A stretch of DNA of 58,971 bases from Terriglobia bacterium (GTDB lineage: Bacteria > Acidobacteriota > Terriglobia > Acidiferrales > UBA7541), in the NCBI GenBank assembly GCA_020073705.1, contig JAIQES010000026.1:1-58971 (forward strand), read 5' to 3'. The number at the start of each line of letters is the position of its first letter. Positions within the stretch are counted from its first letter, which is position 1. Below are positions 21,130-36,080 of the stretch, piece after piece. The position numbers and the translations under genes were made by a program. Under the pieces are notes generated by a model. It worked only from the letters and a program-made list of their open reading frames with translations. It was not told the DNA's origin and made no database searches.

Positions 21130-21254
21130 CGCCCCCTCCTGGAGACTTTCTTATGAAGGGCCTATGCAGGTGGATCATACTCTCCTGATAGCGCTCGCGG
21201 CAAACGTTCCGTGCCGCTACTCCCTCGGTGTTTTCTTGTGGTACAGTTCCGCCT

Positions 21255-21932
21255 ATGCGGCGCCGTCAGTTTCTGGTTCTTTCCGCAGCAAGTATCGGCG
21301 GCGTATTGGTGTATTCGCTGGACCGCCGGGCATCCCGCCTCTTCGCCCAGGAGAAATCGTCTCAGTCCCTGAAAATTCCGCTGCGATTTTTCACCGAGGC
21401 GGAAGCGCTAATCGTCGCTGCCGCGGCGTCGCGAATCTTCCCGAGCGACGACTCCGGTCCGGGAGCCAAGGAAGCCGGTGTGGTGATCTACATCGACCGG
21501 CAACTTGCCGGACCCTATGGGCGAGACCGTTACCGCTACACGCAAGGGCCGTTCGTAGAAGATGCCCCGCGGGAGTTCGGGTATCAGGGCAAAGCTACAC
21601 CTCGGGAGGTTTATCGTGAGGGGTTGAAAGACCTGAAAGGTTTCGATCGCCTGTCGCCCGAAGAACAGGACAAGCAGTTAAGGCAAATCGAGTCCTCGCA
21701 TTTCTTTGCTCTATTGCGCCAAAACACCATCGAAGGAATGTTCTGCGATCCCATGCACGGCGGAAACGCCGACATGGTCGGCTGGCAGCTCATCGGGTTT
21801 CCTGGCCCGCGCATGAGTAATTATGCCGACGTGGACAAACACTACGGCGAGGCGTTCCGTCCCAAGCCCGTCAGCTTGCAGCAGGTGGTCGGGCGTAAGG
21901 TCCGCCCCAGCGAGGACGAGGACCTGAAATGA
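21255..21932 (+). CDS. Gluconate 2-dehydrogenase subunit 3-like protein with Tat signal
   Basis: 225 residues. The N-terminus MRRRQFLVLSAASIGGVLVY is a twin-arginine signal. The mature part fits the gluconate 2-dehydrogenase subunit 3 family: FFTEAEALIVAAAASRIFPSDD, GAKEAGVVIYIDRQLAG, then the late GMFCDPMHGGNADMVGWQLI. These small subunits accompany flavin-containing GMC dehydrogenases at the periplasmic face and help the partner be exported or docked. The gene overlaps the GMC gene by 4 nt (ATGA), confirming the pairing. The ATG at 21255 has no strong Shine-Dalgarno but fixes the Tat motif at the start. Confidence 0.85.
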   Translation: MRRRQFLVLSAASIGGVLVYSLDRRASRLFAQEKSSQSLKIPLRFFTEAEALIVAAAASRIFPSDDSGPGAKEAGVVIYIDRQLAGPYGRDRYRYTQGPFVEDAPREFGYQGKATPREVYREGLKDLKGFDRLSPEEQDKQLRQIESSHFFALLRQNTIEGMFCDPMHGGNADMVGWQLIGFPGPRMSNYADVDKHYGEAFRPKPVSLQQVVGRKVRPSEDEDLK

Positions 21933-23692
21933 AGACCCTCCGCTCGACAGACGTCGTGATCATCGGTGGCGGATGGACGGGTTTGCTCATGGCCAAGGAA
22001 CTGGGCTCTCGTACGGCGCTCTCGGTGGTCGTGCTGGAGCGCGGCGGCCCGCGGAAGACGCAAGACTATGCCGCGGACATGGATGAACTCGATTATTTTG
22101 TCCGCTTGCACATGATGCAGGACCCTTCGCGGGAGACGGTGACGCTGCGCCACAGCCCCAGCGAGCGCGCTCTTCCGATCCGGCAATTTGGTGCTTTCCT
22201 TCCCGGCTCCGGCATCGGCGGCACCGGCGAACACTGGGGGGCGGTCTACCCTCGCCTGCTACCCGATTGTTTCGAACTCTATTCGAAAACCGTCGGGAAG
22301 TACGGCGTAAAGAAATTGCCCGAAGGCCACTCGATGCAGGATTGGGGCATAACCTACGACGAGTTGGAACCCTACTACGCGCGGTCGGAACGTGAACTAG
22401 GCGTATCCGGCAAAGCAGGAAACCTAAAAGGAAAAAAGATCGAGGGCGGAAACATCTTTGAGGGCTGGCGCAGCAGTGAATATCCCATGCCACCTGTCAA
22501 GACTCCTTACTTTTCCGATTTGTTCGGGAAGGCTACAAAGTCCCTCGGATATCATCCTTTCTCCAATCCCGTTGCCATCAACAGCGAGCACTACACGAAT
22601 CCCGACGGGATGTCGCGGGCCGCTTGCGCTTTTTGCGGATACTGTGAACGCTTGGGCTGCATGATCGGCGCCAAGGCGCAACCCACCAATACGTTTCTGC
22701 CGGTGATCCAAAAGCAAAAGAGCGTGTCAATTCGTACAGGAACTTCGGTCCGCCGCATCGTTAAAGACACAGCAGAAGCCTATGGAAAGGCGCGCGGAGT
22801 CACCTACATCGATGTTTCGGGCGAAGAAATCTTTCAGCCCGCGGATCTGGTGATTCTTGCTTCCTGGACTCTCGGCAACAACCACCTGCTCCTCCTTTCC
22901 GGCATTGGAAATCCTTACAACCCTGCGACGGGTAAGGGAATTCTGGGAAAGAATCTAACGCATCAAGTCAGCTTTCCTGCTGCTCAGTCCTTCCTCGAAA
23001 AACCGTTGAACCGGTTCATGGGCGCCGGCGGCATCGGCATGCGCATTGCCGATCTGGAAGGCGACGTGCTTGATCAAAGCAATCTTCCCTTTATCCGGGG
23101 CGGGATTTTCCAGGGCCATAGTGTGGGCTATCAGCCGATTGCAATATTTGGCAGCGTGCCCCGATCGGTTAAGTCGCGCTGGGGCGCGGAATGGAAGAAG
23201 GCGTCCATCGAATACTATGACCGCACGGGAACCGTCTCTTTTTCAGGAGAGCAAATTCCCTACAAAGGAAACTATATCGATCTCGACCCCACCTACAAGG
23301 ATCACGCGGGCGACCCGCTACTCCGTCTGACGATCAACTGGCGAGAGAATGAGCGGAAAATGGTGGAATATATGACCGCGAAGGGAGTCGAAATCGCGCG
23401 CGCCATGGGCGCGAAGGAAATCAATCCATTTCCGGGATATGGCGATTACGACGTGACGCGCTACCAGTCCACACATCTTCAGGGCGGCACGATCATGGCA
23501 CCGTCTCCCGAACGCGGCGTAGTGAACACGTTCCTCCAGCACTGGCAGGTCCCAAATCTCTTCATTCTGGGCGCATCCACGTTCCCGAACACGGGTTCGG
23601 CAAATCCCACGCCTACCATCCTCGCCCTAACCTATCGCACCGCCGATGCCATCGTGGACCGGTATCTGAAGAATCCAGCGCCGTTGGCGTAG
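21929..23692 (+). CDS. GMC family FAD-dependent dehydrogenase (periplasmic, large subunit)
   Basis: 587 residues. The ADP-binding motif is VVIIGGGWTGLLMAKELG near residues 9-26; GSGIGGTGEHWGAVYPRL is the second flavin motif, and the C-terminal GMC_C block includes HLQGGTIMAPSPERGVVNTF and FPNTGSANPTPTILALTYR. It matches large subunits of gluconate or 2-keto-gluconate-type dehydrogenases and has no signal of its own, so it is probably carried out with its Tat-bearing partner. The sugar or alcohol substrate and the electron acceptor (usually a cytochrome c subunit) are not encoded beside it. A CAFCGYCERLGC cluster near residues 232-243 is notable. Confidence 0.85.
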   Translation: MKTLRSTDVVIIGGGWTGLLMAKELGSRTALSVVVLERGGPRKTQDYAADMDELDYFVRLHMMQDPSRETVTLRHSPSERALPIRQFGAFLPGSGIGGTGEHWGAVYPRLLPDCFELYSKTVGKYGVKKLPEGHSMQDWGITYDELEPYYARSERELGVSGKAGNLKGKKIEGGNIFEGWRSSEYPMPPVKTPYFSDLFGKATKSLGYHPFSNPVAINSEHYTNPDGMSRAACAFCGYCERLGCMIGAKAQPTNTFLPVIQKQKSVSIRTGTSVRRIVKDTAEAYGKARGVTYIDVSGEEIFQPADLVILASWTLGNNHLLLLSGIGNPYNPATGKGILGKNLTHQVSFPAAQSFLEKPLNRFMGAGGIGMRIADLEGDVLDQSNLPFIRGGIFQGHSVGYQPIAIFGSVPRSVKSRWGAEWKKASIEYYDRTGTVSFSGEQIPYKGNYIDLDPTYKDHAGDPLLRLTINWRENERKMVEYMTAKGVEIARAMGAKEINPFPGYGDYDVTRYQSTHLQGGTIMAPSPERGVVNTFLQHWQVPNLFILGASTFPNTGSANPTPTILALTYRTADAIVDRYLKNPAPLA

Positions 23693-23898: not shown

Positions 23899-24510
23899 AT
23901 GATCACACGCAAGATTGGCGAAGGTGGCCGCTGGCTACTCGAAAAAATCGTGGATGTGGTCGCCTCCACCGGCATCAATCCAAACTTGCTCACATTTTTC
24001 GGCCTGTTGGTGAATGGCTGGGCGGCAGTGCTGTTTGCGATGGGAAAATTTCGCTCCGCGGCCATGGTCATTTTCTTTGCCGCGTTCCTCGACATGCTGG
24101 ATGGGCAGGTAGCGCGCCGGGCGAAGCGTGTGACGGCGTTCGGCGCGTTTTTTGATTCGACGCTCGACCGTTACTCAGACATGGCGCTGTACATGGGATT
24201 GCTTGTGTATTATGCGGAGGCCGGGCGGGCATCCTATGTAATCCTGGCGGCGGTCGCAACGGCAGGGTCGGTGATGGTCAGTTACTCGAGAGCGCGCGCC
24301 GAGTCGCTGATTCCATTGTGCAAGGTCGGGTTCATGGAGCGTCCCGAGCGCATGGTGCTGCTGATCCTCGGCGGCTTCTTCAATCACATGGCCCCGGCGC
24401 TATGGGTCATCTCCGTGGTTTCGACGCTCACCGTCATCCACCGGATCGTTTTCACCTGGCAGGAAACCAAGGCCGGCCGCACGCTGCCGAAAATCCGTCT
24501 CCCCTTGTAA
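23899..24510 (+). CDS. CDP-alcohol phosphatidyltransferase
   Basis: 203 residues, polytopic. The family signature D-x2-D-G-x2-A-R-x8-G-x3-D-x3-D is complete in DMLDGQVARR followed by GAFFDSTLDR (about residues 65-92). Such enzymes displace CMP from CDP-diacylglycerol (or CDP-archaeol/CDP-alcohol) with an alcohol such as glycerol-3-phosphate, inositol phosphate or an alditol. The family pattern here resembles the inositol-phosphate/unknown-alcohol branch rather than PgsA, but that is a weak judgement. The gene is convergent with, and 20 bases from, the PlsC gene that ends the lipid cluster. Confidence 0.88.
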   Translation: MITRKIGEGGRWLLEKIVDVVASTGINPNLLTFFGLLVNGWAAVLFAMGKFRSAAMVIFFAAFLDMLDGQVARRAKRVTAFGAFFDSTLDRYSDMALYMGLLVYYAEAGRASYVILAAVATAGSVMVSYSRARAESLIPLCKVGFMERPERMVLLILGGFFNHMAPALWVISVVSTLTVIHRIVFTWQETKAGRTLPKIRLPL

Positions 24511-24530
24511 TTATCACCACAGACAAAAAA

Positions 24531-25340
24531 TCAGTGGTTTTGCGAGTCGTTGATGGCGTCGTCAATCGGCCGCGACATAATTGCATGGACGCGGTCGCGG
24601 AGCGCGGAGAAGTCTTCCTTGCGCAGGTCCTTCGTTTCGATGTTGTCGTGGAGATAGACGGTGATCCTGCCCGGCTTGAGCAGCCAGCTCGTTTTCTTGT
24701 GGAATTCGAACGCGCCGACCATGCTGACTGGGACGATGGGCGTGCCGAATTGCAGCGCCATGCGAAAGACGCCGTCCTTGAACGGGCCGAGACGGCCATT
24801 GACGGTACGCTGCCCTTCGGGAAAAACGGCGAGGCTGACGCCTGAATCGAGCGCGGCGCGAGTCAGCCGCCACATGCGCTTCAAGTCCGAAGGGCGGTTG
24901 TTGTCCGGCACGGGGACGTTGCCGAAGCGTTTCATCATCCATCCGTACACGGGAATGCGGAAGTGCGATTCAAACTCCAGCCCCCGCAAGAATTGCGGGA
25001 TCGTGGCATAGAGCACGAATGGATCGAATAGATTGACATGATTGACGAGAAAAAAGCAGGTGCGCGCCGGATCAAACCCCGGTGCGCGCCGCACGACGAT
25101 TTTCGCGCCCGCGAGCTTCATCGTGGCGCGGCAGAGCATGCGCTGCGCGCCATCGTTCCCGCGGGGATCGATGAAAATGCCGAGCAGTACGAGAAAGGCG
25201 CACACGGGAAAGAAATATGCCGCACAGAGCAGCCAGTGAAACGTGCTGCGCACAATCGCCCAGGTGCGGCGCACGCCGCGTTCGGTGGGTACGCCGCTTG
25301 CCGCAGCTGCCGAAATCTGCTGTCCGCTTTCGCCGTTCAT
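24531..25340 (-). CDS. PlsC-type lysophospholipid acyltransferase
   Basis: 269 residues. One membrane anchor at about 33-55 is followed by the acyltransferase domain. Motif I is NHVNLFD at 100-106 (the usual NHxxxxD), motif III is FPEGQRT at 173-179, and GTPIVPVSMVGAFEF is the late motif. Members transfer an acyl chain from acyl-ACP or acyl-CoA to a lysophospholipid or glycerol phosphate at the inner membrane. The start overlaps the lipid kinase stop by 4 nt, so the two are translationally coupled. Its place at the end of a cluster containing an ACP and acyl ligases suggests it finishes the lipid. Confidence 0.88.
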   Translation of the reverse strand: MNGESGQQISAAAASGVPTERGVRRTWAIVRSTFHWLLCAAYFFPVCAFLVLLGIFIDPRGNDGAQRMLCRATMKLAGAKIVVRRAPGFDPARTCFFLVNHVNLFDPFVLYATIPQFLRGLEFESHFRIPVYGWMMKRFGNVPVPDNNRPSDLKRMWRLTRAALDSGVSLAVFPEGQRTVNGRLGPFKDGVFRMALQFGTPIVPVSMVGAFEFHKKTSWLLKPGRITVYLHDNIETKDLRKEDFSALRDRVHAIMSRPIDDAINDSQNH

Positions 25341-26233
25341 ACCATCACATCAAGGGCGCCGGGAAGCACTTCGAGCGATTTGACTTCGAGTGTAAGCACT
25401 TCACCGTCCACCACAACGTCCACCGGCCCGGTAAGATCGAATTCGATCCGTGTCGCTATGCGGCGAGAAGCCAGCGGATGGCGGATATGCGAGCCGTCAA
25501 ACAGGGCTGGCAGATTCCGCACCAGGCCGAGGCGCCCGATCGGGCCCCAGTGCACGTATTCGATCGCGCCGCTGTCGATCGAGGCATTTGGCGCAATCAT
25601 CATCTTACCGCCAGTGAACTTGCTATTGCTGAATGCCAGAAACAAGCAGCGGCGCTCGTCGCGCTCGCCATCGGCGCGCAAGGGAAACGGGCGGCGGCGC
25701 AGCCGCGCCAGGGAAACCAGCACCCCAACCAAATAGCCAAGCTCGCCCAGGCGTTTCAAGCGGCGATTGACCAGCGTAGCGACGTCGGCGGCAAAACCAA
25801 TATTCAGCGTGTTGATGTAAAAGAGCGTGCCGCCTGCGTGGTTCAGGCGAATGACGTCGCACGGGCGCCGGCGGCGGGCGGCAATGGCCTCAATGGCATA
25901 GTCTGCGCCGCGTTCGGTGAAGTCGCGAAGAAAAGAATTGCCCGTTCCCAGAGGGAGAAATCCCAGCGCGGCGCGCCCCTCCGAGGCGGCAGCGGGGAAA
26001 AGGCCGTTGACGATCTCGAAACCGGTGCCATCGCCGCCGGCAGCGATAAAATTGCGGAATCCGGCGGCATAGGCGTCGCGGGCAAGAATAGTGGCTTCGC
26101 CAGGAGCGCGCGTCTCGCGTACCTCGAGGGCGAGACCCGCCGCGCGCAGTCTGTCGAGCGCCGCCGGAGCGAGCTTCCCGCAACGTCCACCGCCCGCGGC
26201 TGGATTCACGATCGTGAAGTACCGCGCGCTCAC
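25337..26233 (-). CDS. Diacylglycerol-kinase-like lipid kinase (YegS/DagK family)
   Basis: 298 residues. The nucleotide motif GGDGTG at 66-71 and the earlier [12 protein letters not shown] at 9-20 are those of the DAGK catalytic domain; [13 protein letters not shown] follows. It probably phosphorylates a diacylglycerol-like or sphingosine-like lipid at the membrane. Its ATG overlaps the acyl ligase stop by 4 nt and its stop overlaps the PlsC start by 4 nt, placing it in the middle of a tight triplet. The lipid acceptor is unknown; in this context a fatty-alcohol or ether-type glycerolipid is possible. Confidence 0.87.
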
Positions 26234-27951
26234 AGAGCAACCATTGCGCCACGGTCAAGCTGTTTACCGATCTGTTCGGCAAGGACGGCGCGTTTGATTT
26301 TCATGGAGGCGGTGCGCGGAAAATCCTGGTCCCAGACAGCATAGCCGCTGATGCGTTTGTAATTGAGAAGCCGCGCGTTGCGCCGGGCGATCTCTGCGCG
26401 GAGAGCGTCGTTCACCGCCTGCCCCGGCTCGGGATGGAGCACCAGGAGGAGCTTTTCGCCGGTCATGGTGCGCTGCGGCCACAGATAGTTAGCCGCGAAG
26501 ATGCAGGACTCCTTCACGGGAAGCCCTTCGAAGGCGTTCTCGATGTCTTCCGGATAAATATTCTTCCCTTCGGCGGTGACGATCATGTTTTTCTTACGGC
26601 CGAAGAGTTGAAGGTGGCCTGTCGCATCGATGCGCCCGAGGTCGCCGGTCATCAGCCAGCCGTCTAGGATCGTTTCTGCTGTCATCTCCGGATCATCGAG
26701 ATAGTGCGACATCACGGTCTTGCTGCGGATGGCGACTTCGCCGATCCCGTCTGCGCCGGGCTCGACGATGCGAATTTCCATGCCGGGCAGCGGGCGGCCA
26801 ACTGTATCTGGACGAAACGGGTTGAAATCGTTGAGCGTGACGGCGGTGCCCGCCTCGGTTAAGCCGTAGCCGTTGGCAACCGGAATGCCCAGGTCATAAA
26901 AAAATTGCAGCGTCTGCGGCTCGGTGAACGCCCCGCCCACAAACAGAGCGCGCAACTCCCCGCCAAACGCCTGATGGACCTGCTTGAGCAATCGGCGGCT
27001 GAGGAAAAGATTCGGACGGCGGCGCGTGAGCCGCTTGTTCACCGCGACGAGGGCGTTGAAGATCCTGCGTTTCGCGGGGGGCAGTTCGGCAAATCGCGCT
27101 TGCAGGCCTTTTTGCAGATTCTTGAGCACGAGCGGAACAAGGCCCATGTACGTGATCTTGTATCGCGTGAAGGCTTCACGCACGAATTCGGGGCGGAGCG
27201 TTCGCAGATGCACTACGGTCGCGCCGCATGTGAACGGGCCGATGAAGCCCACCATGAAATCAATCGCATGATTGGTGGGGAGAATGCTGAGGTAGCGCAC
27301 GCCGGGCCAAAACGGATACAGCGCAGTGAGCGACCGGCACTGCTCGAGATAATTCTCATGCGTCATCACGCATCCCTTTGGACGGCCTCCGGTGCCGGAG
27401 GAATAGACGATGCACGCTGTGTCTTTGCGTGTGCGAGGCCGGAATTCGGGTGCGTGCGTGCCGCGAAATTCCTCCCACCGAATCCCGCCCGCGAGATCCG
27501 CGTTCGGCGGCGCCTCGGTAACCAGGACCGTGTGCGGCTTGTATTTGCGAGAATCTTCGACCTGCATGATAGCGCGCCAGAACGGATATTCAACGATCAG
27601 CACACCCGCTTTCGAGTGTTCCAGCAATTGCAAGTGCTCGGCAGCGGAGAGCTTGTAATCGAGCGGAACGACCACGCCGCCCGCGAAGAATAGAGCGCAG
27701 GCCGAAATCAGCCACTTCGGCTGATTGGTCATGATGATCGCCGCGCGGTCTCCGGCGGCAAACCCTGCGTCTTCGAGCGCTGCCGCCAACGGCTCGGCGG
27801 CTTCACGGAATTGCCGGTAGGTCAGGCGCGAGCGCTCGCGTTCGCGGTCAGCTTCGATCAGGCAGACCTCATCCGGCCAGCGGTTGAGCGCCGCGTGCAG
27901 CGCCGTGCCCAGCGAGTCGTATTGCGTCAAGTCGAGCATCAAAATAGCCAC
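26230..27951 (-). CDS. AMP-forming acyl-CoA/acyl-ACP synthetase A
   Basis: 573 residues of the ANL superfamily. The phosphate-binding loop is [11 protein letters not shown], followed by the A5-type [13 protein letters not shown] and the A7/A8-type [20 protein letters not shown]; lysine A10 is in [11 protein letters not shown]. It activates a carboxylic acid as an adenylate and passes it to CoA or to a carrier protein. A stand-alone ACP gene just upstream could be the acceptor. The GTG at 27951 has no clear Shine-Dalgarno and sits next to an inverted-repeat element; an ATG at 27939 is possible. It overlaps the lipid kinase by 4 nt. Confidence 0.87.
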
Positions 27952-27955
27952 AGAG

Positions 27956-28111
27956 CCACGGAGACACGGAGAAAAACAAGATTATATGAGGAATTCACCT
28001 GATGAATCGCTTTATTCCGTCATTTAGCGCCGCCCCTTCAGGGCGGCACCTTAATCAAGCACATGCCCGCCTAAAGGCGGGCGCTACATTTCTTCCTCTG
28101 TGTCTCCGCGG
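27956..28111. repeat. 156-bp REP/MITE-like element with inverted ends and two hairpins
   Basis: CCACGGAGACACGGAG at 27956-27971 and CTCTGTGTCTCCGCGG at 28096-28111 are inverted with 14 of 16 matches. Inside are two perfect stems: GCCGCCC/GGGCGGC (28029-28047) and GCCCGCC/GGCGGGC (28065-28082). It has no coding capacity and sits in the only sizeable gap of the lipid cluster, between the ACP and ligase A genes. Similar hairpins are, from memory, scattered in acidobacterial genomes. Confidence 0.75.
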
Positions 28112-28115
28112 CAAA

Positions 28116-28358
28116 TCAGAGCCTTGCCTGGATACGCGTGGCGAGGGTGCGAAAATCGCTGACGCCCTGAACTTCGTAATCGGGAAGCTCAACGCCGAAA
28201 TGGTTTTCGAGGCGCGTGAGCAGTTCAAGCGCCTGCAGGCTGTCGATCCCGAGCTTCTTGTAGAAATCGTCGCTGGCCTGGAGGCCGGCGCGCGCGACTT
28301 TGAAGTGCGCAGCCGCCAGATTCAGGATTTCGTCAGTCGTCTGTTCAATAGTTTTCAT
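28116..28358 (-). CDS. Acyl carrier protein
   Basis: 80 residues, one carrier domain. The phosphopantetheine serine is Ser40 in LGIDSLQALELL, and the following helix LTRLENHFGVELPD is typical. Such stand-alone ACPs outside the fab locus usually serve a dedicated lipid or secondary-metabolite pathway. It lies between an enoyl-CoA hydratase and two AMP-forming ligases, so it is likely loaded by one of them and unloaded by a reductase or the PlsC enzyme. The gap of about 118 bases before it and the repeat element after it could allow separate expression. Confidence 0.9.
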   Translation of the reverse strand: MKTIEQTTDEILNLAAAHFKVARAGLQASDDFYKKLGIDSLQALELLTRLENHFGVELPDYEVQGVSDFRTLATRIQARL

Positions 28359-28476
28359 GAGCGTGCCACCAAGAATCCTCTTTTTATCTTACAGGAAGAC
28401 GGCGCAAGCCGGCGAATCGGGCAAGGCAAATTTCACTAAGGGCTCCTGTGCTTCACCAAACGTGGCAAGCGTTGAG

Positions 28477-29280
28477 TTACGGCAGATACGGATGTGCCCC
28501 GGTATCTTCGACGAACTTACGCAGGCCCTTCATGACGGCCGGCCGCATGAAGAGTTCGCAGAAGATGTCGATCTCGCGGCGTAATTCCTCCGCCGGAAGC
28601 GGCTTGATGAAACGCTTCGCGGCGGCGGCGGTGGCGCGATCAAATTTGGTCACTTGCGCGGCGGTGGCGCGGGCCAGGCGCAGGGATTCACCCTCGGCGG
28701 CCACCTGGCTGGCCAAGCCGGCGGCGAGTGCCTTGTTGGCATTGATGCTTCGTCCGGTAAGAAGCAGATCGCGGACCATGGCATTCCCAATGTCCCGTTT
28801 CAATCGCGGAATGCCGCCGAAACCGGGGATAAGCCCCAGGCGCAGCTCCGGGAAGCAGAAACGAGCCATCTTGTCGGCGATGATCAGGTCGCAGACGAGG
28901 GCCAGCTCGAAGCCGCCACCGAAGCAGACGCCGTGGACGGCCGCGATGGTCGTAAGTGGCGACGTATCAAGCCGGTCGAGCACGGCGTGGATGCGTTCTA
29001 GGAACTCGCGGACGCCCTTTGCAGCGGCAGTCATCTCCATCTGCTGCGCGAGCGTGTACAGTTCTCGGAGGTCGGCGCCGGCCGAGAAGCCGGAAGACTG
29101 CTTGCTGTAAAGAATCAGCGCGCCGGCCTGTGATTCGAGGGCGGGCAGCGCGGCGGTGAAACGTTCAAGGTCGTCCAGCATGGCCATGCCGATTTCGTTG
29201 ACGGGCGCGCGGTCGAGCGCCAGCTCGATCACGCCATCCTCGACCTTCCACGAAAGCGTGTTCCCGGTGTATTCGTTCAT
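28477..29280 (-). CDS. Enoyl-CoA hydratase/isomerase family protein
   Basis: 267 residues of the crotonase fold. The oxyanion-hole segments are GFSAGADLRELY and GVCFGGGFELALVCDLI, and FCFPELRLGLIPGFGGIPRL includes the Glu used by many hydratases. It probably hydrates or isomerises an acyl-CoA or acyl-ACP intermediate of the lipid cluster. The start is uncertain: the ATG at 29280 has AAAGG upstream, while a GTG at 29319 would begin 3 bases after the upstream ligase stop and add 13 residues. Confidence 0.83.
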   Translation of the reverse strand: MNEYTGNTLSWKVEDGVIELALDRAPVNEIGMAMLDDLERFTAALPALESQAGALILYSKQSSGFSAGADLRELYTLAQQMEMTAAAKGVREFLERIHAVLDRLDTSPLTTIAAVHGVCFGGGFELALVCDLIIADKMARFCFPELRLGLIPGFGGIPRLKRDIGNAMVRDLLLTGRSINANKALAAGLASQVAAEGESLRLARATAAQVTKFDRATAAAAKRFIKPLPAEELRREIDIFCELFMRPAVMKGLRKFVEDTGAHPYLP

Positions 29281-29322
29281 TCTCTTAGCCTTTGCGTGAA
29301 CCGGACATTGTTCATTCACCGG

Positions 29323-30990
29323 TCAGGAACCCGGTTGCTCGGTCTTCGCGTACATCCGTGCGATCTCCGCAGCGAAGCGTGCGGCGATGGCATCGCGCTT
29401 CAGCTTGCCGTTGGCCGTCAGCAGGCCGTTTTCGATCGTGAAGGGCTGCGGCTCCACGTGAAACCTCCGAATCTTCCGGTAGTGGGGCAGTGTAGCGTTC
29501 AACCGCTCGATTTGCGACTCGATTTCCTCATGCGTGATTTCGCCAGTGATTATCGCCGCCAGAAAGCTGCGGCCATTTCCGACAAGCATGACCTGCTGCG
29601 CGCCGCGAAGCGCGCGGAGAAGCTCCTCCTCGATCGGCTCAGGCGCAATGTTGTGGCCGGAATTCAGAATGACCAGATTTTTCAGCCTTCCGGTGATCCG
29701 CCATTTGCCATTCGCGTCCACGTCACCCTGATCGCCGGTATGGAACCAGCCGTCGTAAAGCACCTGCGCCGTTTGTGCCGGCCGGTTCCAGTAGCCGGGG
29801 AAAATATTCGGGCCGCGCACCAGGATTTCGCTGTTTTCGCCGGTTTTCATTTCGACGCTGGGGACGGCCGGGCCGACGCGCCCGGGCTCGATGTGGCGCG
29901 GGTCGTCCATCGTGCAGATGGCCGTAGTTTCGGTGAGGCCGTATACCTGGAGCACGGGGATGCCGAGCATCATAAAAAATAATTGCGTTTCCCGCGCGAG
30001 CGGCGCCGAACCACAAATGAGCGCGCGAAGATTCGGGCCGAGGCGCTTGCGGATAGAAGGAAAGATCAATGTGCCTGCCAGGCCCAGCCACAGAAAATCC
30101 CATGGCCGTGGCATTTTCGCGTCCAGACGCAACCACGCGGCCTTCGCACGATCAAAAATGTTGGCAATCGCGCCCCCGCGCTTGCGGAGGTTGTCTTCGA
30201 CGCCAGTGCGGATGCGCTCCAGCAGCGCCGGCACATTGAGGAAATAGTCGGGCGCCGCGCCGCGCATTTCGTCGGCGAGTTTCGTCAGATCCATCGAAAG
30301 CGTGAGGACACTGGTTCTCGACAGGCATGACAGCAGCAAAATCCATGACCCGGCAAAGCAGAACGGCAGGTAATGGAAGACACGGTCCGGCACATCGCCC
30401 CGTCCCATCAGTTGATCGAGGCGCGCTGTGGTGCAGGAAAGCATGTGGTCGAGATTGCCCACGGTGATTACAACGCCCTTGGCTTCACCCGAAGTTCCCG
30501 ATGTGTACAGGATGGCGGCGGCGTCCTGTGGCGCAAGCGCGACGGGCGTGGCTGCAACCGCCGGTGTTGGAGCAGGAATTGCGGCGAAGATTTCGTCAAA
30601 CAGCGCGAGACCTGGCGCACCCGGCCAGGCGGATGCGATGGAGTCGCGAAGAGCTGCGTCACCACAGCAAATCAGGCCCGGCCCGGCGTCGCGCAGCATC
30701 GCGGCCAGTTCGCCGGGAGCCTGGCGGGCGTAAAGAGGAACCGCGATGATGCCTTCTGCAAGAATCGCGAGATCGAGTGCGGCCCACCGGATGCTGTTCG
30801 GAGCGACCAGGGCGCAACGATCTCCCTTTGCAAGGCCCGAAGTGCGAAGAAACGCGCGCGCCGTAGCGATTTGCGCAAGCAAGTTCGTTCCTGTCGCCGT
30901 GAGCGGTGAACCGCCTGCGTGGGCTTCGGCCAGGATTACGCGGCCAGCCGCGTGATTCAATCGTAAGAAGATGTTTTCAAGGAAGTTCAT
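29323..30990 (-). CDS. AMP-forming acyl-CoA/acyl-ACP synthetase B
   Basis: 555 residues of the ANL superfamily. The phosphate loop is [11 protein letters not shown], with [12 protein letters not shown] as A5 and [20 protein letters not shown] as A7-A8; the C-terminal lysine is in [14 protein letters not shown]. It differs from ligase A across most of its length and is not a recent duplicate. Closest in pattern to long-chain fatty-acid ligases/FAAL-like enzymes. With ligase A it suggests two different acids, or one acid delivered to two carriers, are activated. It follows the pyruvyl-transferase-like gene after 15 bases. Confidence 0.87.
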
Positions 30991-31005
30991 CGCGAATCGA
31001 ACGGC

Positions 31006-32442
31006 TTAGTCCCCGGCTGCCGAGGCTGCCGCGCCTTCATAGGTTTCGACCAGCCGCTCGAGATTCCCGTTCATCGGCGGAAGATACTCTTCCCAGCTGT
31101 GCACGCCCGAGCGCACCGGGAATTCCGGATAGCGCTGATGCACGGCGCGCTCGAGAAAGACTCCCATGCGGGCCATGGTTTTCAGATTACGCACTACGGA
31201 GCGCGCAATGGCGTCGCGTATGGCGTCGGTTTCGGCCGCGAGGCGCTCCATCACGGTTAGGAGTTTCGCTTCAAGATCGGGATCATCCACGGTGAGCAAT
31301 AATTGTTCGTGGCCGCGTTCCCGGAGCAGGTTGCGAATGCGCTCGTCCATGGTGATGCCGGCCGAGGCGACCAGGCCGGGCATGGACGTGACAATGCCGT
31401 GATAGCGGGAAGAAACCATCAGGTTGCAGCAGCGCAGCACGCTCACCAGTCCGTACATATCGTGCTCGTTGGAGGTAAATACGGGCGCGCCGCCCAACTG
31501 TGCCGCCAGCGCCTCGCAGGCCTTGGCGTCCAGCCGCTCCATGGCGACCAGGATGGTGAATACATTGTGCCGGGCGCGAAACGCCTTGACGGCGCCTGCC
31601 ATCGCCCCAAGATACTTGTTGTACGCCGCATCCACCGCGGGACCCTCATTGTGAAAGTAAACAGAGCGATAGTGGCTTTCCCTGTGAGCACCGAAGCACG
31701 TGCGGGCAAGGAATTTCGCGAGGGAGGCTTTCACCGGCCACCAGAACGGGTTAATGGGACACAGAACGAGCACTTGTGTTCGGCCGTCCCAGCCGGCCGC
31801 GCTCAAGGCCTTGTGGCCGTACGCTGGAGGATGCGGGTCAAAGGTCCAGGCGGTGTCCGTGCCGAGTTCGGTTGGCACGCCCAGATTGCTTAACACCGAC
31901 TGCGATTCCTCATTGCGCGTGATGACGAGCGAGCGGCGGCAGAAGCGCGCGCACATTTTTTCGAGCAGCGGGTCCATGTGGCCCGCCTCAGCCCCATAAC
32001 CGATGGAGAGCTTGTTTTCGGCCGCGGCGATTCCCAGCGAGCCGATCATCATGGTCGCCAGCGCGTTGGCGAACTTACTCTTGAACATCGAGCCTTCGCA
32101 CGCGATCACGCCGTGCTGTTGGCGCACCTCGTGATAAAGAAATGGCGGAAAAATGTCGGGCAAGAACACCTGGCGAGCATCGCCGAAGTAGCCGCGCGTG
32201 CGGTCGAAGTTCTGTGTCATCACGCTCAGTGCAAGATGGTCTTCGCCCAGCACCCGGCGCACTTGGCGAAGCATCTCTTCGACACGCACGTCGGAGCCGG
32301 TGTTGCGCGTGCCGTTGTAGCCGGCGAACAGCAGCTTGAGTTTTTCGCCCGGTTGCCACGGGCGGCCCACCCCCAGCATCCAGAGGACACGCGTGACTTC
32401 AATCAGCGAGCTGACCCATGCTTCGAGAAGGAGATCGGTCAT
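31006..32442 (-). CDS. Polysaccharide pyruvyl transferase family protein
   Basis: 478 residues. The CsaB/WcaK-type N-terminus [20 protein letters not shown] and the late [19 protein letters not shown] with conserved RYHG fit the polysaccharide pyruvyl transferase fold (a GT-B-like fold). Family members add a pyruvyl ketal to a sugar of a cell-wall or secreted polymer; some may use other donors. Here the gene lies between reductases and acyl ligases, which points to a glycolipid rather than a wall polymer. The ATG at 32442 overlaps the upstream reductase by 4 nt. A longer in-frame reading to 32757 overlaps that gene and has no family similarity. Confidence 0.8.
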
Positions 32443-33617
32443 CGCAGAAATCCTTCTGTCTTGCCAACGCTGGCCGCTGCGGCATCCTCGCGAACCGGCG
32501 CAACCGAGGCGGGCCATTCCCGGTACGGATACGAGAAATGGTGATCGCGGCTGAATCGCAGCAGCGGATAGCAATACTTGGAGAACGGTTCCGGGGCGCG
32601 GCCCATTTCCGCCACGATCCGCGAATTGTCGAACACCGTGTCCCAAACCAAGTATGGCAGGAAGACTTTCAGCAGCGACGCGCTGCGGCTGAACCTTCCA
32701 GGATTGCCCGACAGCCAGCTCACGACGGACGAAAACTGGCGTTCGAGCCCCGGCCAAAACAACGGCTCCATCTTTCCGGCCGCCTGCGCCAGAGCGCGCG
32801 TAAGCTGTCCAAACGTCTCGGAACCGGTGCCCGAGGAGAGGTGGTAAATCTCGTGCTGCGGATTCTGCTTCTGATGCAGAGCGACGACCGATTCCGCGAC
32901 GTAATCCACCGGGACAATATCGATCCGGTCGGTCGAACGGAACGGCAGAACAGGCAGCCCGGCAAGGAATACGAACGCGCGGACCATGTCGAATTGCGTT
33001 GTTTCGGCGCGGCGGCTGTCGCCTAGCACGATGCTCGGGCGGAAAACCGTGCGCGGCACTTCGGAGAGGAGTTCGCGCACCATGTGCTCGCAGAATTTTT
33101 TCGTGCGCGCATACGGATCATAGTCGGAGCGATTCCAGTCGATCGAGGCATCCTCGGTGACGACTTCATGACTGCGCGCGCCGGCCACCGCGACGGTCGA
33201 GACCTGACTGAAGCGGCGCAATCCGTGCGCGTCCTGGGCGCGGCGAGCCAGTTGCGCGACTTCGAGGGTCCCGCGAAGGTTTACGTTGAGGCAGCTTTTT
33301 TCAGACTTGCGGTTAAGTGATGCGGCGCAGTGAATCACCGACTCGGTCGTCCCGACCAGGCGCGAGTATTCGGCTGCGTCCAGGCCGAAACGCGGATCGG
33401 TGAGATCGCCTCGAAATACGGAGATGCGCGTGTCGAGAGCGTCCTGCAATAGAGGGAAATCCAGATGCAATTGCAGGGCATGCCAGAGGCGGATGTTCGC
33501 CTCTTGTTCCGTCTTCGCACGCACCAGCAGATTCAGCCGGTCGGTATGACGATCGAGCAGGATTGCGGCGACGTGCGCGCCGATGTAGCCGGTCGAACCG
33601 GTCAGGAAGATAGCCAT
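32439..33617 (-). CDS. NAD(P)-binding thioester/acyl reductase (SDR, male-sterility type)
   Basis: 392 residues of the extended SDR fold. The Rossmann motif is TGSTGYIG at 6-13 and the catalytic pair is Tyr169 and Lys173 (YARTKK). It matches the NAD_binding_4/thioester-reductase family, which reduces a carrier-bound or CoA-bound acyl group to aldehyde or alcohol. The end region YPYREW has no clear domain. It starts 3 bases after the stop of the HAD-reductase fusion, so two reductases are made from one message. Each may carry out one of the two reduction steps. Confidence 0.85.
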
Positions 33618-33620
33618 GGA

Positions 33621-36080
33621 TCAGGATTGGATCCCTGTATTCGCTGCTGTCCCCGCTCGCGGCGTGCCCGCGCGGCGAGCCGTCCCGCCGGTAGCGGGCT
33701 GCGGGGAAAAAACGCGGCGCGGGCGCGATTCCGGCGCGCGCCCCTCGATGAGCGGGTAAACCCACCGCCGCAGAGCCGGAACGTGGATGTTAATCCAATA
33801 TTCCCACCAGTCAATCGAGTGAGGATCATAACCGAAGGCCCGGCGTTCGTCCTCTGGAAGGGAAGCTGAGAGCAACTGGACATTCTCCGCCTCGAACACC
33901 TGCTCGTTGTGCAGAATGAATGGTTCGTAGAGCTCGATGAGCTTTTCGACGCGAGCGAGGTCGCGCTCCTGCCGGGCCAGTGGAGGATGCTTCATCTGGA
34001 GGGCCGAGGCGAAACGGTTGATGCTCCGGACCACGGCCTTCTGCGCGGGAACCGAGAATTTGTCGTAGCGGGACTTGGAGACAGCAATGGTGTCGAATTG
34101 CATGCGGATCCAATGCTCCAGACTCTGTTGCGCGCGATAATGTTTGCGGTGCGCGAGGCCAGTGAGTTCGATCGACCGGCCCATGTCGCACGGATTGCTC
34201 GCAGAGGTGGCGAGCTGGTAGATCGGCTTATGGCGCCGGGCGATGATCGCGGCGGCAATCAGCGTCATCCCTCGGCAGACCATGTCCACGGGAATCACGT
34301 CAAGGCATTTGCGCTTGTTGGTCGGCAACTGGCGGAAGTAGGTACCGAGCAGGTAAGAGAGCGGCGCCGACGTATTGATGCCTTCATTCCAGCCGCGGAA
34401 GGGCTGGTCTATTGAAGTCTCGACGATCGAAGGCCGCACGATGGCAACTGGCAAGCCTGCGCCATGCCGGACGAGGAGCGATTCGGCGAGGGATTTCGTA
34501 AGGGTGTAGGTGTTGGGCCAGCCGAGGTGCCGCGCGCGGCGCGTGCCCGCGCGCGTCAGGCGATTCCGCAGCCAGCGCATGCGATTCTTGCGAATGAGAT
34601 TTTCGAGTTCCGGGCCGGAAGGTTCTTCGCCGCCGCGGTGTTTTCCGAGCGCCTGCCGACGCAGCGCCGCCGTGATCTCCGGGCTATCGGAGCGCGCTTC
34701 GGCATGCGCCACCACCTCAAGCAGGGATTGCCACTCGCGCTCGGCGTCGAAGCAGGGGATTGGAAGGGGCGTGTAATTTGGATGGACTTCCTCGGGAACC
34801 CGGCCATCCCTGGCTCCCACGACATAGCAGGTGGAAAGATGCAACAGACCGGCATGGTCAGAGGCCTTCAGGAACTCGAGCAGATGTCTGACCGGGGCGA
34901 CATTGCTCGCGAGAGCGTCGCGAAGATCCGGATTGAAATCCGTCAGGCCGGAACTGTTGACGATCAGGTCCAGCGTGCATGCCAGATGCGCTCGTATCTC
35001 GGGGGCCATGCCCAGGCCCGGCTGGCTCACGTCGCCCTCGACGACTTCCACGCGATCGCCCACGAAGTTTGCGAATCGATCGCCTAGCTGGTCTTGCAAC
35101 GGGTCGAAAACGGGCGACTCCTCAAAGATTTTCTCAAAGCGGCGCTGTGCGGTCATCGTGCGCTGCCGGCGGACCAGCAGATAAATCTTGCCAATCTGAG
35201 GAACCTCGGTCAACAGTTGCGCCAGCCAGACTTTGCCGATAAAGCCGGTTACTCCAACGAGCAGAATATTCTTGCCGGCGAGCGTGCCGCGAACGGAAAG
35301 CGGCGCGGACTGTTTCTCCCGGTCGAATACGACCAGGGCACGGTGATTCGGCGCCTCCGGGCGCTCGGCGGGCAGAATCGCTTTCTGGAGCTGCTCCCGA
35401 TGTGCGGTGAGACCCAGGTTACGCAGCAGGCGTTCGGCGGGCACGCTGCCATCGGCGCCGCGCTCGGCGGCCCATGCAAGGGGGCTGCGGGGCCGAATCA
35501 CGGGGTCGAGCAGGCGGCCTGTGGCAATCCCGTCGCGGAATTCAAGCCGGTTGCACACCAGCCGCATGACGCCAAAATACTGCGCAAGCGGGCGCATCAC
35601 ATGATCGAGACCCTGGCTGACAAGCACGACATTCTCCGCACCCTTGGCCGTGACGCATTCCCGCAGGCGCTTCACGCCATCGGGTTTGAGCTGCCTCTTC
35701 AGAATGTATTCGAAGTATTCTTCGCCCAGCAAATCCAGCCGGTCGCGCGTGACTCCAGCCAGAAGGGTATGCAGCACGCGTGTGGCGAAAACGCGGTGGC
35801 TGGCATACAGAGCCGGCCGCACCAAGGCCAGCAGCAGCATCCCTCCACGGCGCGCCCAGCGTTCTACGAACGTGTGCGAGTTCCAGGTGAAGTAAGCCAC
35901 CGGTCGGACGGCGCCAAGGTCTGCCAGGCTTCCCTCAACGCGCCAAAAGGTCAGCGTGCGAAGGTCCGGCTGCAAGGGAACTATAGAATTGCTCCCGGGA
36001 GCATGATGGCCGTTGGTACCGAATTGGGCGGTCTGATCACTCAATGCTGAATTCCAATAACAGATGCAGAGAAGAATCAC
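33621..36080 (-). CDS. HAD-fatty acyl-CoA reductase fusion with degenerate HAD nucleophile motif
   Basis: About 819 residues. The N-terminal ~230 residues look like a HAD-IB domain ([20 protein letters not shown] and [18 protein letters not shown]), but the DxDGT nucleophile motif reads FWRVEGSL at 45-52, without the aspartates. A fatty-acyl-CoA reductase follows: [15 protein letters not shown] at 276-290, [13 protein letters not shown], and catalytic Tyr525/Lys529 (YTLTK), then a FAR_C-like end. It should reduce acyl-CoA or acyl-ACP to fatty alcohol. The start is uncertain: GTG 36080 or TTG 36044. It is the first gene of the lipid cluster. Confidence 0.83.

Follow-up and report, generated by a model that had tools for sequence, protein, structure and literature searches.

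A conserved acidobacterial lipid operon with a reductase related to ElbD and a tentative role in forming phospholipids with a reduced chain

Introduction

Which lipid is made by a set of neighboring genes that encodes two reductases, two acyl ligases, an acyl carrier protein (ACP), a pyruvyltransferase-like protein and a lipid kinase? The question is raised by positions 23899-36080 of a 58,971 bp stretch of DNA (the whole of which is referred to here as the window) from the Terriglobia bacterium assembly GCA_020073705.1, contig JAIQES010000026.1; the cluster lies on contig C51, in our labels, of a 3.79 Mb host genome that is 97% complete. Eight of the genes form a conserved core, comprising a fatty acyl reductase (FAR) with an N-terminal pseudo-HAD domain, a thioester reductase-like SDR (TR), a polysaccharide pyruvyltransferase-like protein (PST), acyl ligase A, an enoyl-CoA hydratase-family protein (ECH), the ACP, acyl ligase B and a YegS-type kinase. 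We tentatively read the operon as a divergent, unfused relative of elb (ElbD) that would make a glycerophospholipid with an alcohol-derived reduced chain, most likely an alkyl ether, in Acidobacteriota, a reading that falls only a little short of probable. It is favored because the FAR groups with ElbD FARs and the same modules recur in acidobacterial elb loci, and because of the conserved core order, the presence of the FAR in most genomes of the host's family, the Tes and Ino1 genes neighboring related clusters, and the linkage of a CDP-alcohol transferase in the host's own family.

Aerobic Acidobacteriota are known producers of the branched glycerol dialkyl glycerol tetraethers (brGDGTs) used as climate proxies, and the enzymes that form their ether bonds are unsettled (PMC10087280, PMC13274423). 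Solibacter usitatus, a cultured producer, has been reported to be without ElbD, and Ger/PlsA is the current candidate (PMC10087280, PMC13274423). No description of the present cluster was found in the literature in a search confined to open-licence papers.

Conservation and distribution

When 84,980 species genomes were scanned using the FAR protein as query, an approach that picks up close relatives only, 51 loci were obtained, all from Acidobacteriota or titled without a phylum. Among those of other Acidobacteriota with at least 9 kb of sequence downstream of the FAR gene, 27 of 34 have the complete eight-gene core with order and strand unchanged, and the grouping is therefore beyond chance; the other seven are rearranged or incomplete, or contain genes under the identity thresholds used. 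The core genes stay together in Terriglobia, Blastocatellia and other lineages, including many uncultured soil bacteria, which supports the candidate lipid biosynthesis cluster of a preliminary description of this DNA as real and conserved. Its proposed membership of ten genes stands for the core, while a PlsC-type acyltransferase and the CDP-alcohol transferase are lineage-specific. The closest relatives bearing the FAR gene are Terriglobia metagenome-assembled genomes, a gp2 acidobacterium and Candidatus Acidiferrum.

The distribution is patchy. FAR matches at E 1e-60 or better occur in about one third of the genomes of the class (132 of 399); among the matches listed, 15 of the 132 are stand-alone FARs only, with 32-37% identity, leaving 117 of the full-length type. 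Within the host's own family the FAR is present in 80 of 89 genomes, and several of the nine FAR-less genomes are incomplete. All homology searches were E-value-limited.

These data bear on whether the product might be a specialized secreted lipid metabolite (a signal or glycolipid) and not a membrane lipid. An MFS-transporter-like protein is encoded just upstream in 13 loci and an esterase-like protein downstream of the core in 14 (both named from sequence only), and the combination of adenylation, ACP and reductase genes recalls nonribosomal peptide synthetase-like loci. However, a FAR carried by so large a share of the family is unlike most specialized metabolites, the flanking MFS-like and esterase-like genes are not seen beside the cluster in the window, and the core YegS together with the PlsC and CDP-alcohol transferase of the host's lineage suggests phospholipid chemistry. 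We therefore regard a secreted metabolite as unlikely.

Relationship to elb loci

The closest known system is the elb operon with ElbD of Myxococcus xanthus (VEPE/AEPE/TG-1, MIBiG BGC0000871) and its acidobacterial relatives, and all elb comparisons reported here were made through acidobacterial ElbD loci rather than the M. xanthus elb proteins. The two systems share a FAR of one clade, a ligase, an ACP, a PlsC-type acyltransferase, an ElbB-type HAD, an SDR reductase and, in several loci, YegS, all in one locus. In a FAR tree constructed without the FARs of wax-ester bacteria or eukaryotes, the FARs of the cluster, the stand-alone FARs and those of ElbD fall into a single group (support 99); the cluster FARs are nested in it (93), and the ElbD FARs are paraphyletic, flanking the others on either side. 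The thioester/carboxylate reductases, TR included, fall outside. Ligase A, ligase B and the ElbD ligase each form a monophyletic clade in the ligase tree, and the three are not sisters; long branches limit this result, and ElbD fission as the origin of the ligases is rejected as far as this tree goes. FAR, HAD and composition thus link the cluster to elb, and its ligases do not; in the phylogenetic comparison with ElbD suggested in the preliminary description, kinship holds for the FAR, and the ligases form clades of their own. The accompanying remark that the modules resemble those of ElbD but are separate genes is confirmed, with FAR, ligase, ACP and acyltransferase encoded by four separate reading frames and not one ElbD-type chain.

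The placement of the FAR also speaks to a product of free fatty alcohols or wax-ester-like storage lipids, which we consider very unlikely. Alcohol-forming FARs are best known from such pathways and the cluster contains two reductases and two ligases, but the operon lacks a wax-ester synthase, a kinase, ACP and PST would be superfluous for waxes, and the FAR groups with ElbD FARs within the taxon sampling just given.

Of 149 genomes of the phylum searched with NAD_binding_4, 5 have cluster-type FARs, 16 have ElbD-like chains (~1440-1515 aa) and 3 have stand-alone FARs; among the matches listed, no genome has two FAR kinds. Genes for a HAD, a LarA-family isomerase and ElbD (FAR, ligase, ACP and acyltransferase) make up the acidobacterial ElbD-like loci, often with an HpnA-like SDR and, in some, with YegS. 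The gene following the ElbB-type HAD codes for a LarA-family nickel-pincer-nucleotide isomerase (L090:10956-12554 (-), L100:11892-13643 (-) and L119:2722-4413 (-)), with LarAH14/15/16 scores of 849 bits (L090) and 807 bits (L100). For M. xanthus elbC, which occupies the equivalent position, the published description goes no further than an unknown function (PMC9131029), and no activity was detected for LarAH14 in a 2020 survey (PMC7583248). One ElbD locus also encodes, near ElbD, a member of glycosyl hydrolase family 47 (417 bits; L094:3810-5204 (-)). This family is best known from eukaryotic mannosidases.

The cluster also differs from elb. Besides its separate genes and its ligases from other clades, the cluster has a HAD that is fused to the FAR and catalytically dead, a thioester-reductase-type SDR where elb has the HpnA-like ElbE, and PST, a second ligase and ECH as extra components. 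PST takes the place of the LarA-type isomerase of acidobacterial elb loci.

Stand-alone FARs have two settings, HAD-LarAH-FAR-SDR-YegS clusters and the immediate vicinity of an ACP-ligase fusion (~930 aa). The former (L100-L102, L123 and L124) resemble the present cluster in FAR, HAD and YegS, and differ from it in having an intact HAD and no ligase, ACP, ECH or PST. At L125 the FAR lies beside an ACP-ligase-AT fusion with a recognizable acyltransferase domain, and at L119 beside an ACP-ligase fusion equal in length to that of L125, together with genes for PlsY and for a CDP-alcohol transferase of 57% identity.

Organization of the operon

All ten reading frames of the preliminary description are present at the coordinates given below, and every named domain scores above its Pfam cut-off. 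Nine of the genes lie on the minus strand in one tight operon running from 36080 to 24531; the tenth, encoding the CDP-alcohol transferase, runs in the opposite direction and is therefore outside the operon, although it adjoins it in this family. The several 4-nt overlaps that had been described prove to be exactly three, at TR/PST, ligase B/YegS and YegS/PlsC; three further junctions are separated by 3-15 nt, and gaps of 118 and 164 nt flank the ACP gene.

The first operon gene (33621-36080, minus strand) codes for the 819-aa FAR, with Pfam HAD at residues 68-209, NAD_binding_4 at 274-604 and Sterile at 708-774; the real start codon is probably downstream of 36080. With its NAD_binding_4 and Sterile domains, TGFIGK nucleotide motif and YxxxK (Y525, K529), the protein has the features expected of a FAR. 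A fold search covering about residues 259-783, a segment that leaves the HAD domain outside, gave the plant FAR 7eoz as best match (Z 34.7, rmsd 3.8 over 461 residues). The HAD-FAR fusion noted previously is real insofar as both domains occur in one protein, but its HAD half is catalytically degenerate. The nucleophilic Asp is replaced by Arg47, invariant in 22 of 22 aligned sequences, such that the FYDLEGTL of ElbB-type proteins reads WRVEGSL where DLEGTL or DLDGTL is expected, and motifs III (Lys) and IV (SDSxSD) are lost in the orthologues examined. With the nucleophile, Lys and SDSxSD motifs gone, the residues of a HAD-IB phosphatase are absent and the HAD half is by sequence a pseudo-phosphatase; a working phosphatase is ruled out on these residues.

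The 392-aa TR (32439-33617, minus strand) matches NAD_binding_4 at 154.6 bits and TIGR01746 at 134.9 bits, the latter below cut-off, and TGSTGYIG and YxxxK are kept in 51 sequences. The residues of the other activation and modification enzymes are likewise retained across orthologues. Ligase A (29323-30990, minus strand, 555 aa; PF00501 175 bits, plus AMP-binding_C_3) has YTSGTSG and the C-terminal Lys of NGKLKR, and ligase B (26230-27951, minus strand, 573 aa; PF00501 241.5 bits) has YSSGTGG and the Lys of TASMKIKR. Both are AMP-forming acyl ligases, each distinct from the other ligases of the host genome. ECH (28477-29319, minus strand, 280 aa; ECH_1 138 bits) keeps both Glu at the catalytic positions (GGGFE and FPE), the 80-aa ACP (28116-28358, minus strand; PP-binding 44.6 bits) its IDSLQ motif including the Ser, and the YegS/diacylglycerol-kinase-type lipid kinase (25337-26233, minus strand, 298 aa; TIGR00147 126.7 bits, over cut-off, with DAGK_cat and YegS_C) its GGDGT.

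The pyruvyltransferase-like protein

PST and ECH are the parts least explained by ether chemistry. The CsaB-like PST (31006-32442, minus strand) is 478 aa in length, and a longer frame to 32757 would begin within the neighboring TR gene. Its membership in PF04230 (PS_pyruv_trans) is indicated by both score (32.3 bits, cut-off 25.3) and phosphoenolpyruvate (PEP)-binding residues; Arg176, Arg346, His348 and Asp51 are invariant in 28 of 28 orthologues. These correspond to CsaB R148, R306 and H308, which dock or bind PEP, and to Pvg1p D106 (PMC10435577, PMC4872226), with the CsaB and Pvg1p numbering assigned by motif and not by alignment to those sequences. A predicted structure (pLDDT 83) has a GT-B-type fold, with a UDP-GlcNAc 2-epimerase as best match (Z 21.7, rmsd 3.6 over 328 residues) and a match list composed mostly of UDP-GlcNAc 2-epimerases and GT-B transferases; Pvg1p (5ax7) is not among the best 50 fold matches, and a PDB sequence search with PST gave no match. 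PST thus resembles the ketal-pyruvyltransferases CsaB and Pvg1p in PF04230, GT-B-type fold, the PEP-site Arg/Arg/His and, by motif, the acceptor Asp, but is remote from them in sequence and encoded within a lipid operon, and PEP transfer is only predicted.

The main rival to an ether-type phospholipid, a pyruvate ketal on a 1,3-diol, arises here. The product would be a pyruvylated fatty diol or glycolipid, for which ECH would supply a 3-hydroxyacyl-ACP, TR and FAR would reduce this to the 1,3-diol, PST would add the ketal and YegS would phosphorylate it. PST is a constant core gene beside TR whose R176, R346, H348 and D51 correspond by motif to residues for PEP and acceptor in CsaB and Pvg1p (PMC10435577, PMC4872226), ECH retains both Glu, and the ElbD-type clusters, which are reported ether-lipid makers, are without PST, ECH or such a TR. 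Characterized PST family members, however, use saccharides, the CsaB model score of 56.7 bits is far below the equivalog cut-off of 213, and the kinship of the FAR together with recurrent YegS, PlsC, Tes and Ino1 neighbors favors membrane phospholipids. We consider a pyruvylated product improbable on balance.

Lineage-specific genes and head group

The PlsC-type acyltransferase of the window (24531-25340, minus strand, 269 aa; PF01553 70.4 bits) carries HVNLFD and FPEGQRT. Only certain lineages have a PlsC gene next to YegS, and with it beside the core. At 20 related loci, genes for a small membrane protein and a member of the VKOR family come after YegS in place of PlsC (e.g. L005:20446-21353 (+)).

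The 203-aa CDP-alcohol phosphatidyltransferase (23899-24510, plus strand; PF01066 (CDP-OH_P_transf) 63.9 bits) is convergent with PlsC and the operon. It is inositol-phosphate-synthase-like, being closest to archaetidylinositol/phosphatidylinositol phosphate synthases; the best NCBIfam match is to archaetidylinositol phosphate synthase (158 bits, cut-off 180), and DMLDGQVAR...GAFFDSTLD is retained across orthologues. Among the 71 genomes of the family with both this gene and the FAR, the two are on one contig in 48, always on opposite strands and within 15 kb in 46; in the remaining 23, mostly assemblies broken into hundreds of pieces, they are on separate contigs. Beyond this family the gene is present singly and was not observed close to a FAR, the exception being G185, where it lies beside a stand-alone FAR. 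A universal role in the cluster is rejected; this is a near-universal gene similar to phosphatidylinositol phosphate synthase, linked only in the host's family and, independently, in L119. Upstream of it in the window is a Gluconate_2-dh3 and GMC oxidoreductase pair (21228-23692, plus strand).

Five genomes from two families (G074 and four genomes of one genus of family f70) have Ino1, encoding myo-inositol-1-phosphate synthase, 0.2-2.9 kb upstream of the FAR gene on the same strand. As a constant partner Ino1 is rejected, its linkage being confined to some lineages.

Tes homologues and the ether bond

A homologue of the tetraether synthase Tes (NF045702 315-318 bits, below the cut-off of 450; PDB 7tol, E 2e-60) is encoded upstream of the FAR on the same strand in six genomes, at 0.22 kb (G022), 0.27 kb (G457), 4.0 kb (G117), 6.5 kb (G497), 8.1 kb (G368) and 11 kb (G162). 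This is 6 of 47 placed FAR-cluster genomes, two of them at less than 300 bp, against ~0.06 expected at random positions; the independent linkage events are fewer than six because the genomes are related. Another adjoins the HAD-LarAH-FAR cluster of G084 (L101). Tes-type radical SAM genes beside FAR clusters are located at L097:4920-7100 (+), L096:2795-4948 (+) and L101:14943-17102 (+). The host genome has its own homologue (G000:C15:39921-42041 (+)) with one in-frame TGA, reflecting decay or an assembly error. Tes is rejected as a constant partner, with linkage in some lineages only.

Several observations weigh against an elb-type ether lipid. None of the known ether-forming enzymes was detected in the cluster, its ligases are not ElbD orthologues, and LarAH, typical of acidobacterial elb loci, is absent from it. 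In the host's family, none of the 17 genomes examined has Tes linked to the cluster; in the class Tes is near-universal (378 of 399 genomes), with the cluster in about one third, so Tes does not require the cluster; Ino1 and the CDP-alcohol transferase are also near-universal and mostly unlinked elsewhere. No AGPS-type protein was recognized in the host genome, where the FAD-oxidase_C proteins are one adjacent pair on contig C10 resembling glycolate oxidase subunits. The host genome also encodes, outside the cluster, a 1165-aa BcrAD_BadFG plus DUF2229 protein (G000:C37, L131:258-3755 (+)) that is a Ger/PlsA-family candidate. Members of this family are held to make ethers from esters (PMC13274423) and are a proposed origin of bacterial ether bonds; the candidate has the family's domains, but Ger/PlsA is a CoA-activase-type reductase unrelated to FAR.

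Proposed pathway

The most economical reading is of a phospholipid whose chain would be reduced by FAR and TR and which would be assembled with YegS, PlsC and, here, the CDP-alcohol transferase. Ligase B may load a fatty acid onto the dedicated ACP, with ligase A making an acyl-CoA or a second acyl thioester, and ECH would hydrate or dehydrate a 2-enoyl or 3-hydroxyacyl thioester. TR and FAR, judged from their families and the active-site residues present, would take thioesters to the aldehyde and alcohol level. Having lost its residues, the HAD half of the FAR is probably a structural or docking relic and not a phosphatase. PST, with its PEP residues retained, might use PEP to place a ketal on a product diol, or provide the missing coupling step. 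YegS would then phosphorylate an alkyl- or alkylacylglycerol and PlsC would acylate it; in the host's family the neighboring CDP-alcohol transferase would add a head group, probably inositol phosphate. In several lineages the gene neighborhood suggests that the lipid may pass to Tes for tail-to-tail coupling, and so possibly into membrane-spanning lipids. A bolder form, a new aerobic ether-lipid pathway in which a PST-family GT-B enzyme, and not AGPS, ElbD or Ger, would link the FAR/TR product to glycerol as an ether or acetal and so feed Tes to yield brGDGT-type lipids, we hold to be highly doubtful.

Biological implications

That a dead HAD stands in for a phosphatase, and PST for LarAH, raises questions about elb chemistry itself. 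The cluster may bear on the biosynthesis of ether-linked climate-marker lipids, and as an operon with an ElbD-clade FAR that is conserved yet patchy, and that adjoins Tes in several lineages, it offers a concrete gene set to correlate with lipid profiles.

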